Source: an uncultured Oscillospiraceae bacterium
GTDB taxonomy: Bacteria; Bacillota; Clostridia; Oscillospirales; Oscillospiraceae
Direction of reading: 5' to 3'
DNA length: 40,384 nt
Assembly (NCBI GenBank): GCA_947629795.1
Contig: CANRFC010000026.1
Location: 1 to 40,384, forward strand
Position 1 is the first letter of the stretch; the number at the start of each line of letters is the position of its first letter. Below the pieces are notes generated by a model. It saw only the letters and a list, made by a program, of their open reading frames with translations. It searched no databases and was not told where the DNA came from. Below, one piece after another: positions 7,486 to 40,292 of the stretch. The translations under genes were made by a program, and so were the position numbers.

Positions 7486-7591
7486 GCTGAAATAAAGCTG
7501 AAATTAAGCTGAAGGAATGTTTTTTCGGCTCAAAATGTTGCAGAATGTTCATACATTTTTTCAGCTTCACTTTAGCTTTTTGCCGTATAAT
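7486..7591 (+). promoter_or_regulatory. Activator-type promoter region of the VTC operon with 11-bp-phased repeats
   Basis: The 382-nt gap 7262-7643 holds the coaX promoter on one side and this element on the other. GCTGAA occurs at 7486, 7497 and 7508, exactly 11 bp apart. The inverted form occurs as TTCAGC at 7560 and TTTAGC at 7571, again 11 bp apart. The two flanking 20-mers (7494-7513 and 7560-7579) are inverted repeats with 17 of 20 matches. A consensus TATAAT lies at 7586-7591 but has no recognisable -35 at 16-18 bp; TTCAGC/TTTAGC occupy that place. Direct repeats spaced by one helical turn over the -35 are the known pattern of OmpR/PhoB-family activators. The regulator's identity is not known. 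Confidence 0.65.
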
Positions 7592-7643
7592 GGGCCATGT
7601 TTTCCAAGGCGATATTTGATTCTAAAAGCGAAGAAGGAGAGAA

Positions 7644-8321
7644 ATGCCTATGGACTATCGGCACGAGTGGAAGCATGAGGTCAACTATTCTGACCTGATG
7701 CTTCTGCGTCAGCGGCTGCGGGCGATCATGGCACCCGATCCACACGCTGTGGATGGAAGGTACGTGATCCGAAGCCTTTACTTCGACACCCCCACAGACA
7801 AGGCCCTGCGGGAAAAACTGGATGGAGTGGACCGAAGAGAAAAATTTCGCATCCGCTACTATAACCGGGACACTTCCATGATCCATTTGGAAAAGAAGAG
7901 TAAGCTGGGTGGTTTGGGAAATAAGCAAAGCGCCGCGCTGACAGCGCGGCAGGCCCAGTGCATCGTGGACGGTGATCTGCATTGGATGGAGACCCATGAG
8001 CATGGTCTGGTCCGTGAGCTGTATGCGAAAATGCGGGTCCAGGGGCTGCGGCCCAGAACCATTGTGGATTACACACGGGAACCCTTCGTGTTCGCTCCCG
8101 GCAATGTCCGGGTCACTTTGGACTACGATATCCGCACCGGGCTCTATTCCACCGATTTTCTGGACCCCGACTGTATCACCATCCCTGCCGGGGACGCCCC
8201 CATGATCTTAGAGGTCAAATGGGACAACTTTCTGCCGGACATCATCCGGGACGCTGTCCGGCTTCCCGGACGGCGCGTCTCTGCCTTTTCCAAATATGCC
8301 CAAAGTCGGATCTACGGCTGA
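7644..8321 (+). CDS. VTC-domain polyphosphate polymerase-like protein (225 aa)
   Basis: A single VTC/CYTH-fold domain, related to the catalytic core of yeast Vtc4, which makes polyphosphate from ATP inside a basic tunnel. Tunnel-lining residues are recognisable: WKHEVNY (9-15), RYVIRSLYFDT (39-49), KFRIRYYN (67-74), HLEKKSK (81-87), DYTRE (142-146), VTLDYDIRTG (157-166) and MILEVKW (187-193), ending in FSKYAQSRIYG. The whole protein is the domain, without membrane segments, so it is cytosolic unless tethered by the DUF4956 partner encoded 21 nt downstream. ATG 7644 and ATG 7650 are both possible; AAGGAG at 7634-7639 is better spaced for 7650. Polymerase activity is inferred from fold and residues; bacterial members are little studied. 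Confidence 0.9.
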   Translation: MPMDYRHEWKHEVNYSDLMLLRQRLRAIMAPDPHAVDGRYVIRSLYFDTPTDKALREKLDGVDRREKFRIRYYNRDTSMIHLEKKSKLGGLGNKQSAALTARQAQCIVDGDLHWMETHEHGLVRELYAKMRVQGLRPRTIVDYTREPFVFAPGNVRVTLDYDIRTGLYSTDFLDPDCITIPAGDAPMILEVKWDNFLPDIIRDAVRLPGRRVSAFSKYAQSRIYG

Positions 8322-8342
8322 TATCGAAAGGAGAAAAACAAC

Positions 8343-9017
8343 ATGCTGACCTTCAACGACATTTTCAAGTCCAGCTTTCTGGAGAATGTGACTGCCATCA
8401 GCATTCTGGACATGGTGCTGGCCCTGACCCTGGCCTTTGGCCTGGGATCGTTCATCTTCCTGGTATACAAAAAGACCTATCAGGGGGTCATGTACTCCTC
8501 CAGTTTTGGGGTCACCCTCATCGCCCTGACCATGATCACCACCTTGGTGATCCTGGCCGTGACCTCCAACATCGTACTCTCCCTTGGTATGGTGGGTGCC
8601 CTGTCCATTGTCCGCTTCCGCACTGCCATCAAGGAACCGCTGGACATTGCCTTCCTTTTCTGGTCCATCGCCGTAGGTATCGTATTGGCGGCCGGGCTCA
8701 TTCCCCTGGCAGTTATCGGCAGCGTGGTCATCGGGGTGATCCTGCTCGTCTTCGTCAATCGCAGATCCCACTGCGACCCTTACATTCTGGTCCTGCAATG
8801 CAGCGGGCATGACAGTGAGGCTGCGGTCCGGGAATATCTGGAGACTGTGACCCAGCGGTGCGTAGTCAAGAGTAAATCGGCCCGGGTCGGCAGCGTGGAA
8901 GTCACTTTTGAGATCCGCCTGAAGGACGACAACACCGATTTTGTCAACACCTTGTCCGAGACCCACGGGGTGGAAAGCGCGGTGCTGGTAAGCTACAACG
9001 GCGATTACATGGGATGA
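8343..9017 (+). CDS. DUF4956 membrane protein (224 aa)
   Basis: The family is uncharacterised. Hydrophobic stretches at about 19-41, 54-76 and 102-140 give roughly four membrane segments. They frame the highly conserved loop SLGMVGALSIVRFRTAIKEP, the family hallmark, which contains Arg residues within a partly buried region. A soluble C-terminal domain (about 145-224) has alternating strands and helices and probably lies in the cytoplasm. Known genomic context for this family is a VTC-domain gene, often with CotH or Cthe_2159-type surface proteins, as here. A role as membrane anchor or conduit for polyphosphate made by the VTC protein is an inference. AGGAG precedes the ATG, and the next gene starts 10 nt after the stop. 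Confidence 0.88.
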   Translation: MLTFNDIFKSSFLENVTAISILDMVLALTLAFGLGSFIFLVYKKTYQGVMYSSSFGVTLIALTMITTLVILAVTSNIVLSLGMVGALSIVRFRTAIKEPLDIAFLFWSIAVGIVLAAGLIPLAVIGSVVIGVILLVFVNRRSHCDPYILVLQCSGHDSEAAVREYLETVTQRCVVKSKSARVGSVEVTFEIRLKDDNTDFVNTLSETHGVESAVLVSYNGDYMG

Positions 9018-9027
9018 GGAGGCCGCT

Positions 9028-10977
9028 ATGTCAACCAGCAAACACATTGATAAGATCTGCCTTGCTGCCGCCCTCTTCTCCATTGTTCTGACTTTTCTGT
9101 TTATAAACGGGACTGCCCTGGGGATCGCAGCCGTCACAGACGGCGATGCCGGGGACGATTGGTTTACGCAGAACGACCTGACCGCCGACTGGGACACCGC
9201 CGGTGCTACCCGGATCACCCTTGCTGGAGAGGACGGCACCGTCCGGGGCAACGGCGCTTACATCACCGATGGGGACGTCCATATCCTCTATGCCGGTAAG
9301 TATATCCTCTCCGGGGAGCTGACAGACGGCAGCGTCATCATAGATGCCGATGGGGATGACAAGATCTGGCTGCTGCTGGACGGAGTCTCTCTCCACTGTG
9401 AGGATGACGCTGCACTGCGGGTCGAACAGGCGGCAAAGGTCTTTCTCACCCTGGCCGAAGGGAGCGAAAACACGATCTCCGCCGGCGAATCTTACAGCGA
9501 AGCCGCTACGGCTGCCGGAGTAGACGGCGCCATCTACTCCAGAGACGACCTGACCATCAACGGAAACGGTAATCTGACCGTGACTGCCCGGTACCAGCAC
9601 GGTATCGTCTGCAACGATGATCTTGCCATCACCGGGGGCACCCTTGCCATCACTGCCCCGGAGGATGGTATCCACGCCAACGACAGTGCCCGCTTTACCG
9701 GAGCCAATGTGACCATCTGCGCCGGAGACGACGGTGTGACGGTCTCCAATGATGAGAACACCGGTTATATCTATATTGCTTCGGGCGTTCTCTCCATCCC
9801 CTCCTGCTACGAGGGTCTGGAGGCCATCACCATTACCATCGACGGCGGGACCATCGACATTGCTCCCACCGATGACGGCATCAACGCCGGCGGTCAGGGG
9901 GGTGAACCCGCCATTGTCATCCATGGCGGCGATATCACTATCATCAACACCGACGGTCGGGACGCCGATGGCCTGGACTCCAACGGCAGTATTGAGATCA
10001 CCGGCGGACGGCTGTTCATCAGCGTTTCCAACAGTGGAGGCAGCTGCGCCATCGACTACGGCAGCGAAAATGGCGGGACATGTACCATCAGCGGCGGCAC
10101 TGTCATCGCCTGCGGTAGCAGCACCATGGCCGAAGGCTTTGACTCCGCATCGGAGCAGGCCTTCCTTATGTGTGCCGCCTCCGCATCGGCGGGGACAGCG
10201 GTCACCCTGACCGACGCCGACGGTACGGTGCTCCTTTCCGAGACCATACCCTGTGCCTTCTCCTCTGTTCTGCTCAGCACGCCTGAGCTGGTGCTGGGAG
10301 AAACCTACACCGTCACTGAAGGTGATAACATCACCCAAGTGCTTGCCGACAATTCCTCTGCCGGCGGTTTTGGCGCTGCCGGTATGTTTGGAGGCAACAA
10401 GATGTCCGGCGGTGGCCGGGGCAATCGAGGCAACATGGACTGGAGTCAAGAAGATGGCATGTCCACAGGGCAGATCGGCCAGCCGGAAATGCCTGCGAGG
10501 GGGCAGGAGCAGTACGTCAAACAGGAAAATTCGGACCGGGACTCCTCTGCTGCGCCCAGCCTGAGTGAAGGCTCGGAGAGCTCTGACGGACAGGCGTCCG
10601 TTCAGGAGGATGACAGCCAAAGCATCGACAGTCAGCTGCCTGATCGGGGAGGTATCCGTCAAGACTCCGATGAACAGCTACCCGATGACTGGGGCCAGGA
10701 ACAGCAAGCGCCCCGCGGCGGATCACCCGAGCGTCAAGTCCCGGAGGGTGCGCCGACAGACGAAGACTTCTCTGCTATGGTCGGACAATTCCATGATCAT
10801 GCGGCGGACGGCGCGGACAGGCCAACCGGTGGCCGTTTTCAGATGATGGGGAATGAAGAAAACCCTGTCGCTTCCGAGAACGAGCCCGCGATCTCCTCCT
10901 CCGCACTGGCACTGGTAGGGATTTCAGCCCTGGTCCTTCTGATGGGCCTCCTATTTGCGGTAAAGATCAAACATTGA
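9028..10977 (+). CDS. Cthe_2159-type beta-helix surface protein with two membrane segments (649 aa)
   Basis: Residues about 10-33 form an uncleaved signal-anchor or signal peptide. A right-handed beta-helix region follows (about 60-400) with many short TINGNG / ITGGTLAI / GGTIDIAPTDDG turns rich in Asp and Gly. DKIWLLLDGVSLHCEDDAAL and KVFLTLAEGSENTISAG match the repeat style of the Cthe_2159 carbohydrate-binding family (Pfam PF14262), whose founding member binds polygalacturonate and cellulose and contains calcium. A Gly-rich stretch and a long acidic, Gln/Ser/Pro-rich tail (about 430-620) lead to a C-terminal helix at about 625-645 ending KIKH, so the protein is probably held in the membrane rather than by sortase; no LPXTG is present. 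GAGGAGG lies 5 nt before the ATG. It is the last gene of the VTC operon. The ligand here is unknown. Confidence 0.85.
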   Translation: MSTSKHIDKICLAAALFSIVLTFLFINGTALGIAAVTDGDAGDDWFTQNDLTADWDTAGATRITLAGEDGTVRGNGAYITDGDVHILYAGKYILSGELTDGSVIIDADGDDKIWLLLDGVSLHCEDDAALRVEQAAKVFLTLAEGSENTISAGESYSEAATAAGVDGAIYSRDDLTINGNGNLTVTARYQHGIVCNDDLAITGGTLAITAPEDGIHANDSARFTGANVTICAGDDGVTVSNDENTGYIYIASGVLSIPSCYEGLEAITITIDGGTIDIAPTDDGINAGGQGGEPAIVIHGGDITIINTDGRDADGLDSNGSIEITGGRLFISVSNSGGSCAIDYGSENGGTCTISGGTVIACGSSTMAEGFDSASEQAFLMCAASASAGTAVTLTDADGTVLLSETIPCAFSSVLLSTPELVLGETYTVTEGDNITQVLADNSSAGGFGAAGMFGGNKMSGGGRGNRGNMDWSQEDGMSTGQIGQPEMPARGQEQYVKQENSDRDSSAAPSLSEGSESSDGQASVQEDDSQSIDSQLPDRGGIRQDSDEQLPDDWGQEQQAPRGGSPERQVPEGAPTDEDFSAMVGQFHDHAADGADRPTGGRFQMMGNEENPVASENEPAISSSALALVGISALVLLMGLLFAVKIKH

Positions 10978-11229
10978 GCATTGGGTGGAAAGCTGTGCAG
11001 CCTTGGATCACAGCGGATACCGCCCGGTTATCCTCCTCTTCTTCTCCACTCTTGATTTCCTCATTTCTTCCAGCTTTTTCCAAAAAGCAGCATCCAGTTT
11101 CCGTTCCTTTCCGCCGGTCCCCGAGGCCAAGCGAATCCTTCGTCAGGACGAGTTAGAACAAAATGAGGACCGCTGGCTTTTTTGCCGTGAGTATTACCTG
11201 AAAAGGATCCGGCTGTCCTACAAAAGGGA
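10978..11229. other. Intergenic stretch after the VTC operon, no supported gene
   Basis: The sequence changes from GC-rich to mixed composition here. GGATACC-GCCC-GGTTATCC at about 11017-11035 is a small bulged hairpin followed by a pyrimidine run and may end the VTC operon transcript. A plus-strand open frame of 96 codons from 10985 has no ribosome site and resembles nothing I recognise. Confidence 0.4.
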
Positions 11230-11261
11230 AAAGCCCTGTACCTGTCGCGGTACAAGGCTTT
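11230..11261 (-). terminator. Terminator of the minus-strand DUF5688 / YgjP-remnant transcript
   Basis: AAAGCCCTGTACC and GGTACAAGGCTTT pair over 13 bp with one mismatch around a 6-nt loop. On the minus strand the stem runs into GGCTTTTCCCTTTT. Confidence 0.65.
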
Positions 11262-11289
11262 CCTGGTTGCCGTAATGCGTTAAAGGAGC

Positions 11290-11480
11290 TCTCAAAAAAT
11301 AGCCAGGGATAATGGACACATGCTGCTTCGGCCAGGAGGCAGTTGAAGGTCAGGTTGCCTTTGGCGCTGCAGCCGCCCCAACGCGTTCTTTGATTGCGGA
11401 TCGTGATTTGTCCATAGGTGACGCCGAGCTGCAGAGATCTATATCGTAGGTTCTGACTCCCTCGCCTCGTTTTTTGAGCC
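11290..11480 (-). pseudogene. Remnant of a YgjP-like (DUF45) metallopeptidase
   Basis: The minus-strand translation contains LGVTYGQITIRNQRTRWGGC followed by SAKGNLTFNCLLAEA. This is the conserved core of the YgjP/WLM-like metallopeptidases, normally GVxYGxITIRxQxTRWGSCSxxGNLxFN. In intact members it is soon followed by a YVVxHELCH zinc motif. Here the frame continues as CVHYPWLFF and unrelated residues, and no HExxH appears in any of the three minus-strand frames just downstream, so the catalytic half is missing. The N-terminal part is also absent: the frame begins inside the end of the DUF5688 gene. The fragment is therefore broken at both ends. A very short derived protein is the less likely alternative. 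Confidence 0.6.
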
Positions 11481-11486
11481 GATTTA

Positions 11487-12506
11487 TTACAAATCAGGCG
11501 AAACTGCTTCCAGTTCCTTTTTGATCCCATGATACCGATATATTTGCCGGGAAAGGACTTCCTCTCTTTTGTTCATTTTCCGATTTGTTTCATTCAGGAG
11601 CTCCTGCATCTTTCTCACGGTTATAAAACCATCTGTTGGGTGGATATGAACATCATAAATGCTCGTAAATACCAGATAAAAGTCCCCGCCGATCATTTGG
11701 TAGAGCCGCTCCTGTGCTTCCGGATAAAATGCGGCAATCGCACCATTTACCTCCTGCGTGGTTGTGAGTGTCGGCGCAAGCGAACTGTGAAAGTCTAATT
11801 TTACATCTTCTTCTAGAATTTTATAACGTTTCAACTGAAAACGGGTCGCACTTGTCAGCTGACACAAAACAGGTGCCTGCAAACGCATCGTATTCTCCAG
11901 CGCCTGGTCCAGGATCTCCGCCTCACCGACGTCCCAGATCTGGAATAATTCTCTGGAGACCATCGTACTCAAAACGTCTTTTGATGTTTCATTTTCAGAA
12001 GTTCCTAAGCTGATATACAGGACCAGTGCTATGTCCCCGATCCTGCGATAGATGCCCTTGCTTAGGACCGTATCATTGTTGTCATAGTTCAGTGGCCGGA
12101 GGATCAACCGCTCCCGGATCGCATCCAGATCATGGAACTTTTTGAGTAGCTCAGCTCTCCCATACGCACTGTCCCGCAGCTGCTTCAACGTCGCCGTAAC
12201 CTCTGCCAGTACAGGCTGGAGGCCGTTTCTCCGGTAATTTCTATATAGATCTCCCACAGAAAGACTGAGATACTCGACACTGCCGCTCACGGGCAATTGA
12301 ACAATCAGGAGACTGTTACGTATGATATTGGAATCCGTATTATAATGTCTCGCATTTTTCCATTTGATATGGTCGTCCAAGCATTCATCATCCGCCGCGG
12401 TTGTCCCCTTCTCGTAAAACCGCACATCCTTGTCATCCAGTTTCAAGTCCTCACAGTCCAATAATCCCTCGATCAGTTCGATTATAAAATCCTGTAATGC
12501 CATCAT
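11487..12506 (-). CDS. DUF5688 family protein, unknown function (339 aa)
   Basis: I recognise the overall pattern of DUF5688 proteins, known mainly from gut Clostridia and without assigned function. It opens with an acidic region (about 1-50), then a mostly helical and strand-mixed body with repeated substrate-like phrases such as RLILRPLNYDNNDTVL, YRRIGDIALVLYISLG and AAFYPEAQERLYQMIGGDFYLVFTSIYDVHIHP, the last being conserved in the family. There is no signal peptide or membrane helix, so it is cytosolic. Start codons at 12506 and 12503 follow GGGGGCGAG. Base composition and codon use are visibly AT-richer than in surrounding genes, suggesting acquisition. A good promoter lies at 12544-12572. 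It shares its transcript direction and terminator with the YgjP remnant. Confidence 0.75.
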   Translation of the reverse strand: MMALQDFIIELIEGLLDCEDLKLDDKDVRFYEKGTTAADDECLDDHIKWKNARHYNTDSNIIRNSLLIVQLPVSGSVEYLSLSVGDLYRNYRRNGLQPVLAEVTATLKQLRDSAYGRAELLKKFHDLDAIRERLILRPLNYDNNDTVLSKGIYRRIGDIALVLYISLGTSENETSKDVLSTMVSRELFQIWDVGEAEILDQALENTMRLQAPVLCQLTSATRFQLKRYKILEEDVKLDFHSSLAPTLTTTQEVNGAIAAFYPEAQERLYQMIGGDFYLVFTSIYDVHIHPTDGFITVRKMQELLNETNRKMNKREEVLSRQIYRYHGIKKELEAVSPDL

Positions 12507-27920: not shown

Positions 27921-30900
27921 TTATTCGCAGACGGTAACTTCCAGGATGTGCTCCCCCTCCAGGTCGTCCAGGGGCACGGAGGGCACAGGGCGGCCGTCCA
28001 GGCGCATCCCGGCCTTCTTTCCCCGGGAAATGCGGATATCCAGGGTCCAGCCCCGGCCCTTCCAGCCCAGGGAGCAGCCCGGCCAGGCGGCCGGGATGGA
28101 CGGTCTGACTGTAAGGTGTCCTTCCCTTACTTCCGCGCCAAATAAGGCGTTGAAGGCGGTCTGGAAGTACCAGCCCGCCGCGCCGGTGTACCAGGTCCAG
28201 CCGGCGCGGCCAAAATGCTGGGGATTGGCACAGACGTCGGCGGGAAGGACATAGGGCTCAGCCTTGTAGACGGTCCGGTTGTGGGTCTCGGGAAGAAGGT
28301 TTTTGAGAATTTCGTACCCGTTTTCCGGCATTTTGGCCCGAAACAGGGCCAAGGCGAGCCAAAGCGCGGCGTGGGTGTACTGACCGCCGTTCTCCCGGAC
28401 GCCGGGGGGATAGGCCCGGATATAGCCGGGGTCCTCGGCTCCGTCGAAGGGTGGAGAGAGAACTTTTACCAGAAATTGGGCCTGCTCTACCCCGCTGTCT
28501 TTTGTCTCTACCAGGCGCTTTTGGGCCGCAAGGAGGGCCTCCTGCACCCGGTCTGGGGAACCCATCCCGGAGAGGGCCGCCCAGCTTTGGGCGATGGAGT
28601 CGATCCGGCACTCCTGGCAGGTATGGCTGCCCAGGGGGGCGCCGTCGTCATACCAGCCCCGGAGATACCACTTCCCGTCCCAGGCATTTTCGGCGGCCTC
28701 ACCCAGGGCGGCGGCCCAGTCCCGGCAGAGGCCGGCGGCCTCGGCGTCCCCCACCCGTCGGGCCAGGGGAATGAAGCAGGTGAGAGTGGTGGCGGTGAAC
28801 CAGGTCAGCCACACGCTCTCCCCCTGTCCCCGGACGCCCACCCGGTCCATGCCGTCGTTCCAGTCCCCGGCGCCCATTTTCATCAGGCCGTGGTCCCCTA
28901 CCCCTCGCTCCAGGGCGCAGCGGATGGCGTTGAGGGCATGGCCGTAGACCGTATTGCCCTCGGGGGAAGTCCCGGCGGAAAAGTAGCGCTGGAGCTCTCC
29001 GTCCTCCAGGGGGGCGCCGGAGAGATAGGGGACCTGGACGTCCAGGAGGGCGTAGTCCCCCCAGGTCTCCACATATTGGGCCAGGACATAGGGCAGCCAG
29101 AGCAGGTCGTCGGAGATACGGGTGCGCACCCCCCGGGCCCTTTCCTCCCCCACCTCGTGCCACCAGTGCTGGACATCCCCCTGGGGAAACTGGTGGGCGC
29201 AGCAGCGCAGGATGTGCTCCCGGGTCCGCTCCGGGGAGGTCCAGCGCAGGGCCAGTACGTCCTGGAGCTGATCCCGGAAGCCGTAGGCCCCTCCGTTCTG
29301 ATACCGGGAGGTGCGTCCCAGCAGGCGGCAGGCCATGACCTGATAGAGACACCAGCCGTTGAGATAGTGGTCCAGGGCGGGGTCGGGGGTCTCCACCCGC
29401 AAGGGCTGGACCAGCTCCCGCCAGCGGCTCTGGGTGAGGGCAAGGCCGTCCTCCTCCCCCAGGTCCTCAGGGGACAGGGCTCCGGTCCCCCGGGGGTCGG
29501 TGACCAGGAGGAGCCTGCCGGAGAAGGGAAAGCGGGTCTCGGTCCGGCCGTCTATACTGTAAAGGAGTTCTCCTTTTCCCTTACCTTCGATCAAAAGAAG
29601 GCGGCGCTCCCCTTCCCAGGGGACCCAGGCGGTGACGGTGACAGGGCCCGCCGGCCAGGTCCGCTCCCAGCGGGCCCAGCCGAAGCCGTAGGTCACTACG
29701 GTGGGCAGGCCGTCTCCATCGGCAAAAAGGCTGTGGGTCTCCCCCGCCAGGGTGAGCAGAAAGCGCTCCGGACCGCCGATGGCCAGGGGGTCGTTGTTCC
29801 AGGGCGTGAGCTGGCCCTCCCGGGCGTTCTCCCGCCAGAGGTGGCCGCAGCCGGTCTCGTCGGTGAGCCAGCCGAAGCGGGGATTCACCAGGTAATGGCT
29901 CCAACCCACGGCAGGCAGATCGCCGGATAGGTGTAAAGCAAATTCACCTTTCGGTCGGAAGGACCACCGGGGCGGGCCCTCATTGAGCTGAAGGGGCAGA
30001 AGAGGCGGCTGGGCGGGGGATAAGTCCCGGCGGTCCTCCCAACGGCCTGCGCTGTCCAGCTCGGCCGCCGCCCAGGCGCGGAGGACGGCGGCGGTCTCGG
30101 GAGAGGCGTCCACCAGGTGGATGCCCCCCTTCTTGCCCAGGAAGGGCTCCAGGCCCAGGTCCTTGAGGGCGCGGGTCAGGGCGGCGCGCTGGGGACGGCG
30201 GTAATCTCCGCCATCCCGCAGAAGGAAGACCAGATCAAAGAGAAAACCGCACCGGGTCAGAAGGGCATAGAACTTTAAGGGCTGTGTGTCAAGGTCTTCT
30301 CCTTGCCGGTTTCCATGGGCCAGTGCGATGGGATGATCCCCCGAGATGCCGTAGGGCCAGAGAGCAGACTGGGGAACTTCTCCCTGGCGTTTCCCAGGAA
30401 ATGCCAGGATCGAGAGAAGGTCCATGGCCCGCAGCCCCTCTGCGGCGGTCATCTGGAGCGCCCGAAGCTGCCCGTCCAGCCCGCCGATGGACTGCTGCGG
30501 AGCCCTGAGAGCCCGCTGGGCGGTCCGCTCTGCCAGAGGGGCGTTTTCCTCAAAGCCCAGGGCCAGTCTGAGCCGAAAGCGGTCCCGGTCCACCGGGAAG
30601 CGGACCAGCAGACAGGGATCGACCACCGCCCCCTGGGTCCCCAGGGACGGCCCAATCAGGCTTTGGGACAGGCGGCGCAGTCCGCCCCGGCCCAGGGCGG
30701 TCTCCCGCGACGTATCCCATCCCGAGGGATGGCCGTCCCAGGCTACCGCCAGGGCGGGAGAGCGCTCCTCCCTCCCCGGCCGGCGTGTAAAGGTAATTCC
30801 CCTGTCGGATTCAGTGCTCTGGATGGCCTGCTTGGCGTAGGCAGGATGGGCCTGATAGTCGGCTTTTTTCAGCAGGACCGGCTCCAGGTATGCCACCAGT

Positions 30901-33900
30901 TCATACCCCCGCAGCCCTTGCAGTTCCAGGCTCCAGAGGGCCCCCCGCTCTCCCGCGGGCAGATGGAACCGAAGAGCGGCTGTAAAGGTCTCTTCCTTTA
31001 GGGCCCACTCCGCTCCGGCGCCGTCAAAGCCCCAGGCTCCGTTCCAGTTCTCCGGATAGAACGGGGCGGCGGTGAGGCTCTTCAGCGCCCCGTCGGGCCC
31101 CCGAAGGAAAAAGAGGGCTCCCGCCGGGGCGTACCGCTCCCGAAAACAAGTGAGCACCGGGGTCTCTCCCCTGTCGTCGGTGAGCTCTGCCGCCCCGGCA
31201 TCGGTACACAGGGCGGTGACCAGGCCGTTGGTGAGCAGGTGACAGGCGGGGCGGGCCAGGCCGAAGCCCTCCCCTGTCCGGCGGAGCTGGCTGCGGCGGG
31301 CGGGGCCTTGCCGCTGGGGCTGGACCTCCCCCTGGATGCGGCGGATGGGCTCCCCCACCGGGACCTTCTCCTGGAGCAGCTCCCGGAAGGCCCCCAGGGC
31401 ACTCTCCCGAAGGAAGCGCTCCTGCATGATCCCGCCCCGGAGGACGTTGTCAATGGCCAGCAGGCTCATGCCCAGGTGGTGGACCATGAAGGACCAGACC
31501 GGGGCGAAGGGCTCCCCCTGGTGGAGACGCTGGGGGGTAAAGTCGGCGGCCTCGCACAGGCCGTAGGTCCCCTCCAGGCCCAGGTCCCGGAGACGGCGGA
31601 GGTTCCGGGCGGCGCTGCGGGGCGCCAGAAGGAGGGCCAGGAAGGAGGCGTAGGGCGCCACCACCAGCTCGTCGTCCAGCCCTCGCTTCAGGCCCAGGGA
31701 CTGGACGCCGTGGGCCTTGTACTGGTAGGCCATGCCGGGGTCGAAGGCAAAAAAGCCCGATTCGGAGATCCCCCAGGGGACCCCGGCCTTGGCCCCCCGG
31801 CGCTTCTGGGCGTAGACGCAGAAGGCCAGGGACTCGTACATCAGGCTCCCCTCCTCACTGGGCAGGAGAAGGTTGGGCATGAAGTACTCGAACATGGTCC
31901 CCGACCAGGAGACCATGCCGCAGTAGTCGTTCTCCCCCGCCAGCATCCGGCCCGGCCGCCGCCAGTGGCGGGGCTCCACCTCCCCCAGGGCCACGGCGAG
32001 GTAGCTGGTGAGCCGGGCCTCGCTGGCCATCAGGTCATACCAGCCGGGGGTGAAGGAGCCCTGTTCCGCGTCAAAGCCGATATAAAAGAGTTTGCGACCC
32101 TTGTCGTAGAGGGCCGAGAGGTCCATGGCCCCGGCAAGGGCCCCGGCCCGGCGGGCCAGGTCCTCCTCCCCCCACTCCAGAAGGGCGGCCTTGAGGGCGA
32201 AGAGACAGCCCCGGAGGTTGCCGCTGTCCACGGTGGAGACGTACCGGGGCCAAAGAGGCTTGGCCAAGGCGGTGTCGTACCAGTTGTAGAGGTGGCCCTT
32301 CCACTTCTCCAGGGATTCGATGGAGGTGAGGATGCGGCCGATGAGAGCGGCGGCCTTTTTCCGGCCGGTGAGCTCCAGGTCGGCGGCGGCCACGCAGCTC
32401 AGAAGAGCCATGCCCATGTTGGTGGGAGAGGTGCGGCGGGCGGGGCCCAGGGCGGGCTTTTCCTGGACGTTGTCCGGGGGAAGCCAGTGGTCCTCAGGGC
32501 GGAGCCAGTCTTCAAAATAGCGCCAGATGAGGCCGGCCTGGTGGAGGAGAAAGGGACGGTCGGCGGCGGGGGCCTCCCAGCGCCGCCGGACGGGCTTGGA
32601 CAGGCTCCAGGCAAAGGCGGGCGAGGCCGCCCAGATGAGCCCCAGGGCGTTTCCCGCCGGAAAGCCGGCGAGGGCCATACAGAGGCACCCCACCGCCACC
32701 GCGCTCCACTGGGCGCGGAAATTGGCCCAGAGACTGTCGGTCTTTCGCTCCGCGTCCGCCGCTGTCACCCACTCCAGCAGCCTGCGGTGGCTCACCAGGC
32801 TCCGCCACAGGGCGGTGAGGATGGCCGAGAGGCAGATCCAGGCCTGGTAGGGCAGGAACAGGAGCTGGAGCAGGGTCTGGAGCAGGGTACCGCCCAGGCC
32901 GGCCACCACGGTGGAGTGGTAGCGGCGCTTGGCTCCCACCCCGCCCCGAAAGGCCAGGCCCGCTCCGGAGAGAAGGAGGTTGGACCAGGCTGAGAGCACC
33001 GCCAGGGTCCCCGCCGCCGTGAAGGCGGGGGTGGAGGAACACATGCCCAGGATAAGGGCGGTGAGGGTAAAGATGGGGGAAAGGCTGCGGCGGAGGTTGT
33101 CCAGTATCTTCCACTTGTCCATGGGTGAAATGGGGTTGGGAACCTTCTCCCCTCCCTCGTCCCGGACCCGGCGGCCCAGCCAGGGCAGGAGCTGCCAGTC
33201 TCCCCGCACCCAGCGGTGGAGACGGGAAAAGTAGCTTGAGACTTTGTATGGGTAGCCGTCGGTGAGCTCCACGTCGCCCAGGAGGCCGGCGTGGAGGTAG
33301 GCTCCCTCCAGCAGGTCGTGGGAGAGGATGCGCCCATCGGGAAAGCGGCCGTCCAGACACCGGGCAAAGGCCTCCACGTCAAAGATGCCCTTGCCGGTGT
33401 AGCTGCCCCGGTCGAAGAGGTCGTGGTAGACGTCGCTGCAGGCCCCGCCGTAGGGGTCGATCCCCCCCAGGCCGGCAAAGACCCGGGCGAACTGGGAGCG
33501 GTTGGCGGCGCGCAGCTCCACCCCGATGCGGGGCTGGAGCAGTCCGTAGCCCTGGGTCACCACCCGGCGGCGCCGGTCCACCACCGGACGGTTGAGGGGG
33601 TGGAGCATGGCGCCGATGAGCTCCCGGGCAGAGCCTACGTTCAGACTGGTGTCCGAGTCCAGGGTGATGACGTATTTGGTGCCGGCGAGGGCCCTGGCCT
33701 CCCCGGAGAGCACCCGGAGACTTGTGGCCCGGCGGCGGAGCAGGCGGGTGAGCTCGATGAGGGCGCCCCGCTTCCGCTCCCAGCCCACGTAGCGCTCGTC
33801 CCCGGTCTGGAAGACGGGAGAGCGGAAGAAGAGGTAGAAACCCCCGCCGTACTTGGCGTTGAGGGCGTCGATGGCCTTTTGGGCCCCCTTGACCCAGCGG

Positions 33901-35054
33901 CGGTCGCTCTCCCCCATGGGGCGGGCGCTGTCCCGCAGGTCGGCCAGCAGGCCGAAGCTGAGCTCCTCCCCGGCATCCCGGTTGGCCAGACGGTAGCGCT
34001 CCAACAGGGCGGCGTACTGCCCACCGCTGTCCTCCCCGGTGAGCAGGCCGCAGATGACGCACAGGGTCCTGCCCTGGGGCGGGACCCCCTCCTTCAGGGC
34101 CATTTTTGCCACCGGGCGGGGGTGGACCAGGCGCAGAGCCAGAAAGTCTGCCACATTCTTGCACAGGTCGGAGGCAGGCAGAAGCAGGAGGAAAAAGAGG
34201 GCGGGGCTGTTCAGCTGGAAGCCCAGCCACAGGGCCAGGACCAGGGTGGGCAAAAGGATGGCCCCCACGTAGAGGGCCCCGGCGGCCTTTCGTTCCTCCC
34301 TGCCCAGAGGCTTTCGGAAGAGAAACCAACCCACATGCCGCTCCGGACCTTCCCCGGCCTGGGCAAGGGCCAGAGCCCGCTGGGCGGTCTCCTGCTCTCC
34401 CAGGCCCTCCCGCCGGGCAAGAACGCAGACCTGACGGCGGTAGTGGGCGCGGGTCTCCTCGGCCATTTGGGGGTAGATCCCCGCCGGGTCCCGGCTCAGG
34501 ACGGTCTCCACCGCACTGGCCCGCTCCAGCATGGGGCCCAGATTGGCGCCGGAGAGGGTCCGCAAGGCGGTGAAGACCTCCTCAAAGGGACCCGGCGCCT
34601 CCTCACCGGCTATGCAGAGCTGTGCCAGGCGGCTGCACAGGGCGCCTTTGAGAGCGGGTATGAAGAGGGAGAGCTCCATTTCGGTCAGGGGCTGTTCCCC
34701 CTGGACCCCGGCCAGGAAGGCGGAGAGTTCCTCTGGGATGCAGAGAGGACATTCCGCCCTGACCCGGAGGGCCAACGCCTCCACATAGAGAAGGCCGCCG
34801 CATTGCCGCAGGCGCTTCCCCCGCCGCAGGTCGGACTGAGCCTGACCGCCCTCCCGCTGAGCCAGCCAGGCGTTGTCCAGCAGCCACTCCCCGGCGGGAG
34901 TCTCTCCCTGGGCTGGAGCGGCGGCCAGCCTCGCCCGGGCACGCTCCACCTGAGCCAGAGAGCGGCGGAGACGGTGGGCGGCGGCACGGCCGGAGCAGCT
35001 TCCCACCGGGGAAAGCTCCTTGGCCGCCTGACGTCCCGCTTGAAAATGGTCCAT
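27921..35054 (-). CDS. Cyclic beta-1,2-glucan synthase-like protein, giant membrane enzyme (2377 aa)
   Basis: Related to NdvB/Cgs. Order of parts: an N-terminal helical region (1-240); membrane segments at about 255-295; a GT84-type glycosyltransferase domain (about 320-640) with LDSDTS near 465 as the metal/nucleotide-sugar site and RLHRWVRGDWQLLPWL near 618; further membrane helices at about 658-700, 725-753 and 785-815; a glucoamylase-like domain (about 850-1230) with HQGEPFAPVWSFMVHHLGMS near 1185; and a GH94 phosphorylase module (about 1250-2377) with GAGDWNDGMDRVG near 2064, whose Asp is the catalytic acid. In Brucella Cgs these parts polymerise, cyclise and trim glucan. It is some 400-500 residues shorter than those proteins. 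ATG 35054 has a GGGGGGAG site; the GTG at 35075 does not. Monocistronic. The product in this organism is unproven. Confidence 0.85.
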   Translation of the reverse strand: MDHFQAGRQAAKELSPVGSCSGRAAAHRLRRSLAQVERARARLAAAPAQGETPAGEWLLDNAWLAQREGGQAQSDLRRGKRLRQCGGLLYVEALALRVRAECPLCIPEELSAFLAGVQGEQPLTEMELSLFIPALKGALCSRLAQLCIAGEEAPGPFEEVFTALRTLSGANLGPMLERASAVETVLSRDPAGIYPQMAEETRAHYRRQVCVLARREGLGEQETAQRALALAQAGEGPERHVGWFLFRKPLGREERKAAGALYVGAILLPTLVLALWLGFQLNSPALFFLLLLPASDLCKNVADFLALRLVHPRPVAKMALKEGVPPQGRTLCVICGLLTGEDSGGQYAALLERYRLANRDAGEELSFGLLADLRDSARPMGESDRRWVKGAQKAIDALNAKYGGGFYLFFRSPVFQTGDERYVGWERKRGALIELTRLLRRRATSLRVLSGEARALAGTKYVITLDSDTSLNVGSARELIGAMLHPLNRPVVDRRRRVVTQGYGLLQPRIGVELRAANRSQFARVFAGLGGIDPYGGACSDVYHDLFDRGSYTGKGIFDVEAFARCLDGRFPDGRILSHDLLEGAYLHAGLLGDVELTDGYPYKVSSYFSRLHRWVRGDWQLLPWLGRRVRDEGGEKVPNPISPMDKWKILDNLRRSLSPIFTLTALILGMCSSTPAFTAAGTLAVLSAWSNLLLSGAGLAFRGGVGAKRRYHSTVVAGLGGTLLQTLLQLLFLPYQAWICLSAILTALWRSLVSHRRLLEWVTAADAERKTDSLWANFRAQWSAVAVGCLCMALAGFPAGNALGLIWAASPAFAWSLSKPVRRRWEAPAADRPFLLHQAGLIWRYFEDWLRPEDHWLPPDNVQEKPALGPARRTSPTNMGMALLSCVAAADLELTGRKKAAALIGRILTSIESLEKWKGHLYNWYDTALAKPLWPRYVSTVDSGNLRGCLFALKAALLEWGEEDLARRAGALAGAMDLSALYDKGRKLFYIGFDAEQGSFTPGWYDLMASEARLTSYLAVALGEVEPRHWRRPGRMLAGENDYCGMVSWSGTMFEYFMPNLLLPSEEGSLMYESLAFCVYAQKRRGAKAGVPWGISESGFFAFDPGMAYQYKAHGVQSLGLKRGLDDELVVAPYASFLALLLAPRSAARNLRRLRDLGLEGTYGLCEAADFTPQRLHQGEPFAPVWSFMVHHLGMSLLAIDNVLRGGIMQERFLRESALGAFRELLQEKVPVGEPIRRIQGEVQPQRQGPARRSQLRRTGEGFGLARPACHLLTNGLVTALCTDAGAAELTDDRGETPVLTCFRERYAPAGALFFLRGPDGALKSLTAAPFYPENWNGAWGFDGAGAEWALKEETFTAALRFHLPAGERGALWSLELQGLRGYELVAYLEPVLLKKADYQAHPAYAKQAIQSTESDRGITFTRRPGREERSPALAVAWDGHPSGWDTSRETALGRGGLRRLSQSLIGPSLGTQGAVVDPCLLVRFPVDRDRFRLRLALGFEENAPLAERTAQRALRAPQQSIGGLDGQLRALQMTAAEGLRAMDLLSILAFPGKRQGEVPQSALWPYGISGDHPIALAHGNRQGEDLDTQPLKFYALLTRCGFLFDLVFLLRDGGDYRRPQRAALTRALKDLGLEPFLGKKGGIHLVDASPETAAVLRAWAAAELDSAGRWEDRRDLSPAQPPLLPLQLNEGPPRWSFRPKGEFALHLSGDLPAVGWSHYLVNPRFGWLTDETGCGHLWRENAREGQLTPWNNDPLAIGGPERFLLTLAGETHSLFADGDGLPTVVTYGFGWARWERTWPAGPVTVTAWVPWEGERRLLLIEGKGKGELLYSIDGRTETRFPFSGRLLLVTDPRGTGALSPEDLGEEDGLALTQSRWRELVQPLRVETPDPALDHYLNGWCLYQVMACRLLGRTSRYQNGGAYGFRDQLQDVLALRWTSPERTREHILRCCAHQFPQGDVQHWWHEVGEERARGVRTRISDDLLWLPYVLAQYVETWGDYALLDVQVPYLSGAPLEDGELQRYFSAGTSPEGNTVYGHALNAIRCALERGVGDHGLMKMGAGDWNDGMDRVGVRGQGESVWLTWFTATTLTCFIPLARRVGDAEAAGLCRDWAAALGEAAENAWDGKWYLRGWYDDGAPLGSHTCQECRIDSIAQSWAALSGMGSPDRVQEALLAAQKRLVETKDSGVEQAQFLVKVLSPPFDGAEDPGYIRAYPPGVRENGGQYTHAALWLALALFRAKMPENGYEILKNLLPETHNRTVYKAEPYVLPADVCANPQHFGRAGWTWYTGAAGWYFQTAFNALFGAEVREGHLTVRPSIPAAWPGCSLGWKGRGWTLDIRISRGKKAGMRLDGRPVPSVPLDDLEGEHILEVTVCE

Positions 35055-35123
35055 TTTTCTCCCCCCTATGGTCACTTCTTCCCATTTTTCCCAGAAAAAT
35101 GGCTTTCATGCACGGGGAATCCC

Positions 35124-38363: not shown

Positions 38364-40292
38364 ATGAGACGAAACCTCTTTTCCCGGCTGACCGCCTCTG
38401 CTCTGGCCCTGTCCCTGCTGGCCCTGCCGGCGGCCCAGGCCCTGACGCCCAGCCAGGCCGGGACCCTTTTGGAGCGCTATTATGTGGACGACGTGCCTCC
38501 GGCCGTTTTGGAAAAGGAGACCATCCCGGAGATGCTGGAGACTCTGGGAGACCCTTACACTGAGTATTTCACTCCCCAGGAGTACAGCGACTTCCTGGCC
38601 AGCATGTCGGACACCCGGCTGGTGGGCATTGGCATCTCCTATCTCAATCTGGAGGACGGCCTTCATGTCAGCGAGGTGTTTTCCGGCTCCCCCGCCCAGC
38701 AGGGCGGGCTCCAGGCCGGGGATATCATCATCGCCGTGGAGGGGGTCTCGGTGGTGGGTGAGAGCACGGAATTCTCCTCGGGGCTCATCCAGGGTGAGGA
38801 AGGCACCGATGTGTCGGTGACCTTCCTTCGGGACGGAAAGGAGCGCACCGTCACTCTGCAAAGAGCCCAGGTCACCGTCCCCGCCACCACGGGAGAGCTC
38901 ATCGACGGGCACATCGGCTACATCCGCTGCACCACCTTCGGCCAGGAGACCGTGGGACATTTTGAGGAGCTCATCGACCAGATGGAGGGCGACGCCACGG
39001 TGTGGATCGTGGACCTGCAATCCAACTCCGGCGGCATCACCAACGCTGCCGCCGACGCCGCCGGGCTCTTTGCCGGACGGGGAGAGATGGTCTACTTCCG
39101 GGACGGCCAGGACCAGTATTCCTGCGTGCGCCACGAGGAGAACAGCCGGACCCTCTACCCCGTCATCGTGCTGGTGGACGGCCTGACGGCCAGCGCCTCG
39201 GAGATCTTTGCCTCAGCTATCCGGGAGTACGGCTGCGGCATTGTGGTGGGCACCCGGACCTTTGGCAAGGGGGTGGCCCAAAGCGTTCTGGACAAGGACT
39301 CCATGCCCCTCTTCTTCCCCGACGGGGACGCACTGAAGATCACCTCTTACCGCTTCTTCTCCCCCGATGGCAACTCTACCGACCAAGTGGGCGTCATCCC
39401 CGATCTGCTGGTGCCGGCAGACTACACCGCCGATGTAGCTTATCTTCTGGCCGGAGAGGATCCCGGGAAGGACAATAGCAACACTCTCCGGGCCGACTTG
39501 GGGGTGGATTTCCCCTGGCGGTGGTTCATTGACCTGGACACCGCCTCCAGCGATGAATACAAGGACACCTTTGAGGTCCTCCTGAGCGCCATTCCCTCCA
39601 CCATGAACCTCTCTCTGGGCACCGGCGCGGCGGAAGGGTGGGTCCGTACCTCCCACGAGGAGGTGGCCGAGCGCTGCGGGGTCAGCTATACCGAACCTGA
39701 GTTCAATGACCACGGAGATACCCGTCACGGCTTGGCGCTGAGCATTTTGAAGACTTATGGATTGATCCACGGCACTGATGACGGCGGGTTCCATCCCCAG
39801 GACTCCCTGACCCGGGCAGAGCTGTGCCAGATGCTGGCGGTGGCGCTCAACTGCACGGTGCCCACCAATCCCTGCCCCTTCACGGATGTGCCAGAGGATG
39901 CCTGGTACCGGGATGCAGTCACCGCCATGAGCAATATGGGGCTGGTCCAGGGAATGGGCGACGGCACCTTCCACCCCGGAGATCCCATCGACCACCAGCA
40001 GTTCATCACGGTGATGGGCCGGCTGGGGCAGAAGCTCAACCGCCACCTCTATGATACCGCCTCCACCGCCCCGGAACCCCTGAAGTATATTGTGGGGGTC
40101 ATGGAGTACGAACCCTGGGCCCAGCTTTCAGTATGGCTGCTGTGCTACGGCCAGCAGGACATTCTGGGCCGCACGATAAACTTCCTGTGGGACGACTCGG
40201 ATAAGATCGAGCCCACCGCCCCCACCACCCGAGATGAGGCGGCCTATACCTTCTACCGCCTGCTCTCCTATACCGGCATCCTGCCGGCATGA
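38364..40292 (+). CDS. S41 C-terminal-processing-type serine protease with PDZ and SLH regions (642 aa)
   Basis: An exported protease. Residues 1-26 are a signal peptide (SRLTASALALSLLALPAAQA). A short helical region with GDPYTEYFTPQEY leads into a PDZ domain (about 84-170) containing VSEVFSGSPAQQGGLQAGD. The S41 core (about 172-420) has LQSNSGGITNAA, the nucleophile region DGLTASASEIFASA (272-285) and FGKGVAQS (300-307) with catalytic Lys302. The last third (about 460-642) holds S-layer-homology repeats: GLIHGTDDGGFHPQDSLTRA and FTDVPEDAWYRDAVTAMSNM are clear, and a third is degenerate near EPTAPTTRDEAAYTFYRLL. SLH repeats bind pyruvylated wall polymer, so the enzyme is probably held on the cell wall. 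GGAGG precedes the ATG by 8 nt. Confidence 0.92.
   Translation: MRRNLFSRLTASALALSLLALPAAQALTPSQAGTLLERYYVDDVPPAVLEKETIPEMLETLGDPYTEYFTPQEYSDFLASMSDTRLVGIGISYLNLEDGLHVSEVFSGSPAQQGGLQAGDIIIAVEGVSVVGESTEFSSGLIQGEEGTDVSVTFLRDGKERTVTLQRAQVTVPATTGELIDGHIGYIRCTTFGQETVGHFEELIDQMEGDATVWIVDLQSNSGGITNAAADAAGLFAGRGEMVYFRDGQDQYSCVRHEENSRTLYPVIVLVDGLTASASEIFASAIREYGCGIVVGTRTFGKGVAQSVLDKDSMPLFFPDGDALKITSYRFFSPDGNSTDQVGVIPDLLVPADYTADVAYLLAGEDPGKDNSNTLRADLGVDFPWRWFIDLDTASSDEYKDTFEVLLSAIPSTMNLSLGTGAAEGWVRTSHEEVAERCGVSYTEPEFNDHGDTRHGLALSILKTYGLIHGTDDGGFHPQDSLTRAELCQMLAVALNCTVPTNPCPFTDVPEDAWYRDAVTAMSNMGLVQGMGDGTFHPGDPIDHQQFITVMGRLGQKLNRHLYDTASTAPEPLKYIVGVMEYEPWAQLSVWLLCYGQQDILGRTINFLWDDSDKIEPTAPTTRDEAAYTFYRLLSYTGILPA

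Follow-up and report, generated by a model that had tools for sequence, protein, structure and literature searches.

Annotations call bacterial VTC proteins polyphosphate polymerases, and the locus described here raises the question of what such an enzyme might do beside a membrane protein of the uncharacterised family DUF4956 and a protein anchored at the cell surface. The locus lies in a 40,384-nt contig of an uncultured gut bacterium of the Oscillospiraceae (GCA_947629795.1, CANRFC010000026.1; the window, in what follows, is this whole stretch), where three open reading frames (ORFs) of 225, 224 and 649 aa follow one another with gaps of 21 and 10 nt (Table 1). A first-pass annotation of the bare sequence had read them as a unit of a soluble VTC domain with its tunnel residues, a DUF4956 membrane protein and a membrane-anchored Cthe_2159 protein; ORFs, gaps and Pfam families are all as it described, as is the anchoring of the third protein, which carries hydrophobic segments at both ends besides its PF14262 domain. 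What it missed is that this surface protein, hereafter the client, looks like a Cthe_2159 core grafted onto the chassis of a CotH protein, only the outer core being Cthe_2159, and that the CotH form of the operon is already published (PMC7112168, PMC12345266). Here, we propose tentatively, and with somewhat less than even confidence, that the operon is a polyphosphate machine for the cell surface, made up of a VTC polymerase, DUF4956 and a chassis client with an exchangeable core. The first-pass interpretation is thereby supported in part, and it is extended by the client chassis with its exchangeable cores.

The Cthe_2159 domain of the window client scores 211.6 bits against a cut-off of 25.8, and the structure of Cthe_2159 itself (PDB 4peu) aligns with residues 75-277 (E 7e-32). 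The ends of the protein resemble CotH proteins, as a comparison of its N-terminus (MSTSKHIDKICLAAALFSIVLTFLFINGTALGI) with that of the CotH protein at locus L140 (MSTHKHIDKICLVAALLAIVLCALFMNGEAFGL) illustrates. Residues 1-42 align with the L140 protein at z 23.4, the best value among the 48 other ORFs labelled Cthe_2159 in our broad set of VTC loci (37 of them true) being 2.0. For residues 610-649, the highest z is 9.9 among CotH proteins (7.8 for that of L140), compared to 2.6 among Cthe_2159-labelled ORFs. Similarly, a C-terminal hydrophobic segment was present in just one of the 49 Cthe_2159-labelled ORFs (11 of them false), compared to 13 of the set's 29 CotH proteins.

To see this chassis among close relatives, we used a scan of one genome per species across 84,980 species, which yielded at least 580 relatives of the window VTC protein; the best 80 of these (67-81% identical) constitute the close-relative set. 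The client slot was readable in 73 of the 80, with 49 Cthe_2159 and 24 CotH clients; six of the other seven are cut by contig ends, and the seventh (L173) is without a detectable DUF4956. Two clients matched both profiles and, by Pfam, contain only the Cthe_2159 domain (8 of the 49 Cthe_2159 clients were Pfam-scanned). The same N-terminal chassis occurs in 72 of the 73 relatives, carrying 48 Cthe_2159 and 24 CotH cores, and reads MSThKHIDrIC..a..L.LlLT.LFmNGeALG in the CotH form and MSTHK.ID.ICvaVlvltLllT.LFMNGE.LGI in the Cthe_2159 form. With the window included, 73 of 74 clients have an N-terminus score of at least 76 (the exception, L176, has 34), values that are high partly by construction because the reference is the consensus of the same clients; on the same scale, the maximum is 34 for 47 other Cthe_2159-labelled ORFs (10 of them false), 33 for nine cluster-7 CotH proteins and 43 for 906 other ORFs. 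The C-terminal segment is found in 34 of the 44 complete Cthe_2159 clients and 17 of the 22 complete CotH clients (double matches counted as Cthe_2159), and it is followed by a basic tail in 33 of 35 Cthe_2159 (window included) and all 17 CotH clients. The outer side of the N-terminal anchor is negative in 49 of 49 Cthe_2159 clients and in 14 of the 24 CotH clients. The sequences thus show both the chassis and the exchange of its core. With a kinase core in some clients and a beta-helix core in others, carried by one and the same pair of anchors, the exchange amounts to a natural domain-swap experiment: anything that both cores require must reach them by way of the shared parts.

The distribution of the two cores also permits some inferences about their history. 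A tree of VTC and DUF4956 (82 rows: 73 relatives, the window, five CotH loci and three outgroup rows; L140 has the same sequence as L158) requires 9 changes of the Cthe_2159 label, at least 7 of them forced by well-supported branches, as opposed to a mean of 25.6 after shuffling (bootstrap not fully settled). The older state of the core is probably CotH, which is found in the basal rows and at two of the three outgroup loci. In a core tree built by a quick method (82 of 92 rows kept), the 48 chassis-borne Cthe_2159 cores, that of the window included, form one clade among the 82 cores (Shimodaira-Hasegawa-like approximate likelihood ratio test, SH-aLRT, 100), which is best fitted by one founding graft followed by later exchanges. 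The same clade makes it scarcely credible that the exchange is an artefact of assembly or annotation: most close-relative records are metagenome-assembled or uncultured genomes, yet 48 relatives combine the chassis with a Cthe_2159 core, and one of their records bears the title of a named strain, Atopobium sp. oral taxon 199 str. F0494 (L215). When clients with different cores are compared pairwise, the chassis N-terminus tracks the relatedness of VTC-DUF4956 (r 0.268, a value reached in 5 of 5000 permutations), which suggests that at least some exchanges involved breaks within the gene. Pairs sharing a core are slightly more alike at the chassis N-terminus in every identity bin, so exchange of the whole gene is likely to have occurred too.

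The unit itself is strongly conserved. In a phylum survey of 199 evenly drawn genomes (at least 90% complete, searched family by family), VTC and DUF4956 each occur in 27 genomes at 33 places, the two genome sets being identical, and at 32 of the 33 VTC places DUF4956 lies on the same strand within 2 kb; at the exception (G058), the two matches are on different contigs, that of VTC starting at base 150 and that of DUF4956 at base 307. Likewise, the same three genomes of a control panel of 14 named genomes match both families. CotH occurs in 27 of the 199 genomes (23 with VTC) and Cthe_2159 in 19 (16 with VTC), and one or the other is encoded in all 27 VTC genomes compared to 7 of the 172 others (G160 and G075 below curated cut-offs). 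The linkage across genomes by which the first-pass annotation had suggested judging the unit is therefore very strong, and the sequence data support a near-obligate pairing of VTC with DUF4956 and CotH or Cthe_2159 as the third partner. In a survey at family level, 77 of the 150 genomes had VTC; the two further genomes drawn from the window's genus had none.

To compare neighbourhoods, 80 stretches were fetched, comprising the 32 phylum places besides the window and 48 family places taken from the better-scoring half of 98 (outside the phylum set and the window), which gives 81 VTC genes with the window. A DUF4956 ORF accompanies VTC at 76 of these 81 loci, always on the same strand, 70 times after and 6 times before it; it is missing at L086 and L098 (contig edges), L123, L099 and L114. 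Clients were sought within 5 kb of VTC on either strand, each protein cluster being named through the Pfam result of one representative, and were counted after removal of 11 false Cthe_2159 labels (SLH-domain and other proteins; one judged by Pfam, ten because BLAST matched them to none of the Cthe_2159 seeds and from inspection of their termini). The 35 loci of the CotH-type VTC clade have CotH (27), a leucine-rich-repeat (LRR)/lamin-tail-domain (LTD) protein (6), no client (1) or Cthe_2159 (1, the window), and the other 46 loci have Cthe_2159 (34, of which one also has CotH and one also a metallo-beta-lactamase-fold protein), a metallo-beta-lactamase-fold protein alone (3) or no client (9). 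In this broad set, VTC lineage tracks client kind, and the window looked exceptional there.

Two further kinds of protein are seen at these loci. The LRR/LTD protein is the third partner in a separate VTC clade (L073, L081, L083, L086, L088, L092), in which DUF4956 precedes VTC (L086, whose stretch opens at a contig end, shows none). The metallo-beta-lactamase-fold protein (Pfam-tested in L100, 6333-7253) has a hydrophobic N-terminus, adjoins VTC-DUF4956 in L100, L110, L117 and L133, and is possibly another client in some Cthe_2159-type loci. A reading of the unit as a mobile element was rejected: matches were found in only 3 of 72,556 plasmid and 3 of 50,697 phage records, all below 60% identity.

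Considering the enzyme, VTC is the sole Pfam domain of the first protein (residues 6-221 of 225), and its predicted structure is tunnel domain throughout, a triphosphate tunnel fold nearest to Vtc proteins with yeast Vtc4 as the best match, so the soluble tunnel domain was rightly recognised from the start. Neither an SPX domain nor an attached membrane domain was found in its 225 aa by Pfam, and none of the 81 loci has a natural VTC-DUF4956 fusion. The tunnel active-site residues K10, R69, R71, K85, R145, E190 and K217 are identical in all 81 VTC proteins and lie inside stretches aligned to yeast Vtc4, whose own active site includes R264, R266 and E426 (PMC9911596). The eukaryotic VTC complex (Vtc4/Vtc3/Vtc1; PMC9911596) resembles the window system in its tunnel polymerase fold, its active-site residues and a membrane partner with conserved basic residues, and differs from it in that the window enzyme has no SPX and no attached membrane domain and is partnered by DUF4956 with its MgtC-like C-terminal domain.

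That the VTC protein is instead a triphosphatase or phosphotransferase making no polymer appears quite improbable to us. Triphosphatases have an acidic second, hydrolytic metal site (PMC4641920), and among the three of its four positions that we mapped onto the 81 VTC proteins (all but Glu-90 of AtTTM3), two glutamates are replaced by basic, near-invariant residues, R6 and K192, and the third position is acidic (E8). Since two of the three mapped glutamates are basic and the fold is Vtc-like, with Vtc proteins as the closest matches by structure and by sequence alike, the protein leans to being a polymerase rather than a hydrolase.

The second protein exceeds the curated cut-off of PF16316 (48 bits against 30.6). 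Across 76 divergent DUF4956 proteins only G85, R91, F92 and R93 are fully invariant, R91-R93 being located between two hydrophobic stretches, and this RFR motif may be comparable to the basic residues that line the polyphosphate channel of yeast VTC (PMC9911596). Most of the C-terminal domain is the better-modelled part (predicted local distance difference test, pLDDT, 71 to 87 by blocks), and its best PDB match from this middling model, the only one below 0.001, is the C-terminal domain of MgtC (2lqj, E 3.4e-4). An NCBIfam MgtC model matches weakly (23.7 bits against a cut-off of 214), and the family is described as four membrane segments plus an ACT domain, called an MgtC domain, in PMC12345266. 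Pfam MgtC (PF02308) does not match the window protein at E ≤0.1, a range in which 5 of 74 relatives do (best 0.039); no fold match was obtained for the weakly modelled membrane part, and no PDB sequence matches the DUF4956 profile at E ≤1.

Because DUF4956 resembles MgtC, a regulatory role is conceivable, in which VTC would make a cytoplasmic polyphosphate or phosphate signal, an MgtC-like DUF4956 would tune ATP synthase, phosphate uptake or a sensor kinase, and the surface protein would merely be co-regulated. A gene of the response-regulator/histidine-kinase cluster within 6 kb of VTC at 36 of the 81 loci (not in the window) is in keeping with such a role. We nevertheless regard it as doubtful: the third partner is very constant, being present in every VTC genome of the phylum survey, client kind follows VTC lineage in the broad set, and the chassis N-terminus follows VTC-DUF4956 across core kinds. 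MgtC also differs from DUF4956 in that the latter has a near-obligate VTC neighbour and no MgtC Pfam match.

The published CotH form of the operon comes from polysaccharide loci, where cotH, a polyphosphate polymerase and DUF4956 are accessory genes of Pel clusters (PMC7112168), with SIR_1594-1593-1592 of Streptococcus intermedius as an example (PMC7112168, PMC12345266). There, deletion of DUF4956 or CotH altered aggregation and Pel level, and, in the authors' account, the trio was not found outside Pel loci (PMC12345266). Like the window operon, it places VTC, DUF4956 and a secreted third partner next to one another; it differs in that the window genome has no PelG or CotH match and the scanned neighbours of the window operon are genes unrelated to pel, in that the third gene of this operon encodes a Cthe_2159 core on a CotH-type chassis, and in that the VTC-DUF4956 pair in our survey occurs mostly in genomes without PelG (25 of 27). 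PelG was found in 7 of the 199 genomes (one below the cut-off), including two VTC genomes: in G099, one of the three VTC genes has PelG no more than 5 kb away, and in G125 PelG is on a different contig.

These loci lend some weight to the view that the unit acts on a surface polysaccharide by modifying, phosphorylating or anchoring it, polyphosphate being only a phosphate source or irrelevant. On a Pseudobutyrivibrio plasmid (NZ_CP043029.1, L224), CotH-VTC-DUF4956 lies amid glycosyltransferase and pyruvyl transferase genes; a cluster-8 gene, whose one tested member is a family-2 glycosyltransferase, occurs at 8 of the 81 loci; and the founder Cthe_2159 binds cellulose and polygalacturonic acid (PMC6712302). 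Yet profile libraries revealed no polysaccharide-synthesis gene among the scanned neighbours of the window operon, and with PelG confined to two VTC genomes and not found in that of the window, we think this view unlikely.

Other precedents are more distant. NELoc-2 of Clostridium perfringens contains a VTC - 'tubulin' - resolvase - VTC - 'tubulin' - CotH cluster (PMC2879425), in which VTC genes lie beside a membrane protein of 222-226 aa and CotH; judging from size, place and predicted location, the 'tubulin/FtsZ' label may stand for DUF4956. This cluster differs from the window operon in having CotH rather than Cthe_2159 and other neighbours. Similarly, Cthe_2159 (4peu) shares its core with the window client, in which CotH-type membrane anchors flank the core and whose gene follows VTC-DUF4956. 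Among the papers considered, mostly titles and abstract openings, we recognised none that joins Cthe_2159 with VTC or DUF4956, none on core exchange, and none showing the product of a bacterial VTC protein.

In the polyphosphate machine that we favour, the cytoplasmic VTC protein would polymerise phosphate from ATP, as its fold and residues suggest, and DUF4956 would receive the chain and pass it on or hold it at the membrane, the invariant RFR motif meeting the polyanion much as basic residues do in the yeast VTC channel. The client, anchored at both ends, would then present its outer domain to the product, the fixed chassis bearing a CotH kinase in some species and a Cthe_2159 beta-helix in others, the window included. 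A CotH core could use exported polyphosphate as a phosphate source or acceptor where ATP is missing, and a Cthe_2159 core could retain the chain or link it to polysaccharide at the surface, the founder of the family binding an acidic polymer. The ATP source for CotH on the spore surface is posed as an unanswered question in PMC7821199, and an exported phosphate polymer, if true, would be one testable answer to where CotH-type kinases outside the cytoplasm obtain phosphate. The more specific version, in which a VTC-DUF4956 complex exports polyphosphate as a phosphate or energy source for outer-surface proteins and forms a generic machine whose head is swapped between species on the two-anchor chassis, strikes us as unlikely. 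In either case, the near-obligate DUF4956 provides a concrete two-subunit hypothesis for its family, and an operon with a swapped outer part offers a direct way into the role of VTC enzymes at the cell surface.

Several findings weigh against the polyphosphate machine. Among the broad set's 29 CotH proteins, only 5 have z ≥8 when compared with the N-terminus of the window client, so the chassis is that of the window's lineage, not of CotH partners at large, and the inner side of the N-terminal anchor gave no clear charge signal, being positive in 5 of 49 Cthe_2159 and 11 of 24 CotH clients. DUF4956 was not found beside VTC in L099 and L114 (tblastn, with at least 3 kb of contig after VTC), in L123 (1.8 kb from the contig start) or in L173. 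E8, present in 80 of 81 VTC proteins, retains one glutamate of the hydrolytic metal site; for the polymerase reading already put forward in the first-pass annotation, fold, R6 and K192 are in favour, whereas E8 speaks against it. PPK1 occurs more often in genomes with VTC (9 of 27) than in those lacking it (20 of 172), and the idea that VTC substitutes for PPK1 was rejected. The DUF4956 model is weak in its membrane part (mean pLDDT 65.3; predicted template modelling score, pTM, 0.43), and its likeness to MgtC would suit a regulator no less than a channel. Finally, the VTC deletion mutant of S. intermedius still aggregated, and no change was reported for it in the available text of PMC12345266.

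The interval drawn in the first-pass annotation begins at 7486, exactly where a set of repeats spaced by 11 bp is found. Closer to the genes, TTNAGCTT is repeated at 7560 and 7571, followed by TATAAT, so that the promoter repeats lie on both strands. The pattern TTCAGCTTNNNTTNAGCTT, allowing one mismatch, occurs at only two places in the 2.86-Mb genome, both at the window promoter. An exact 7-mer repeated at 11 bp was present in 30 of 80 regions upstream of VTC (79 relatives and the window) compared to 1.8 in shuffles, and 7-mer repeats at any other spacing from 6 to 40 bp in at most 6 of the 80. An operator motif common to the relatives was rejected, TTNAGCTT-type repeats lying upstream of VTC only in the window and 5 of the 79 relatives; what is common is the 11-bp spacing, not the motif. 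A promoter scan found no sigma-70 promoter at the operon and did not list TATAAT 7586-7591. Control by an OmpR-type response regulator is likely, and such an activator would probably switch the operon on through the 11-bp repeats.

Table 1. Features of the operon and its promoter, in window coordinates
Feature	Coordinates	Strand	Basis
Operator-like array, three GCTGAA units 11 bp apart (7486, 7497, 7508; TTCAGC on -)	7486..7513	-	read in sequence
Operator-like pair TTCAGCTT...TTTAGCTT, 11 bp apart, overlapping the -35 position	7560..7578	+	read in sequence
TATAAT, likely -10 of the operon	7586..7591	+	read in sequence
VTC-family tunnel enzyme, putative polyphosphate polymerase	7644..8321	+	Pfam VTC PF09359, E 3.5e-39
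DUF4956 membrane protein, C-terminal domain MgtC-like	8343..9017	+	Pfam DUF4956 PF16316, E 1.5e-12
Surface client protein, apparent CotH-type chassis with Cthe_2159 beta-helix core	9028..10977	+	Pfam PF14262, E 1.6e-62; PDB 4peu
Chassis N-terminal segment, residues 1-36 (MST.KHIDKIC and first membrane segment)	9028..9135	+	likeness to L140 CotH protein
Cthe_2159 core, residues 81-335	9268..10032	+	Pfam PF14262; core tree
Chassis C-terminal membrane anchor and basic tail, residues 610-649	10855..10974	+	likeness to CotH proteins

Around the operon, a type III pantothenate kinase gene lies upstream on the opposite strand, and a truncated YgjP-like piece followed by a DUF5688 gene lies downstream, again on the opposite strand. 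The YgjP-like piece, a 125-aa ORF at 11153-11530 (-), covers only positions 124-162 of the 207-position profile and appears to be a truncated remnant adjoining the operon. PPK1, PPK2, Ppx/GppA, CotH and PelG were not found in the window's genome (98.6% complete), which has a second Cthe_2159 match on another contig (G000:C9:2526-3443, -) within an open frame of 779 aa. Elsewhere in the window, an S41 peptidase with PDZ and SLH domains, the Pfam-judged member of the 11 false Cthe_2159 labels, is encoded at 38364-40292 (+), and a 2384-aa protein at 27921-35075 (-) combines GH94 and glucoamylase-like domains, in the manner of a cyclic glucan synthase.

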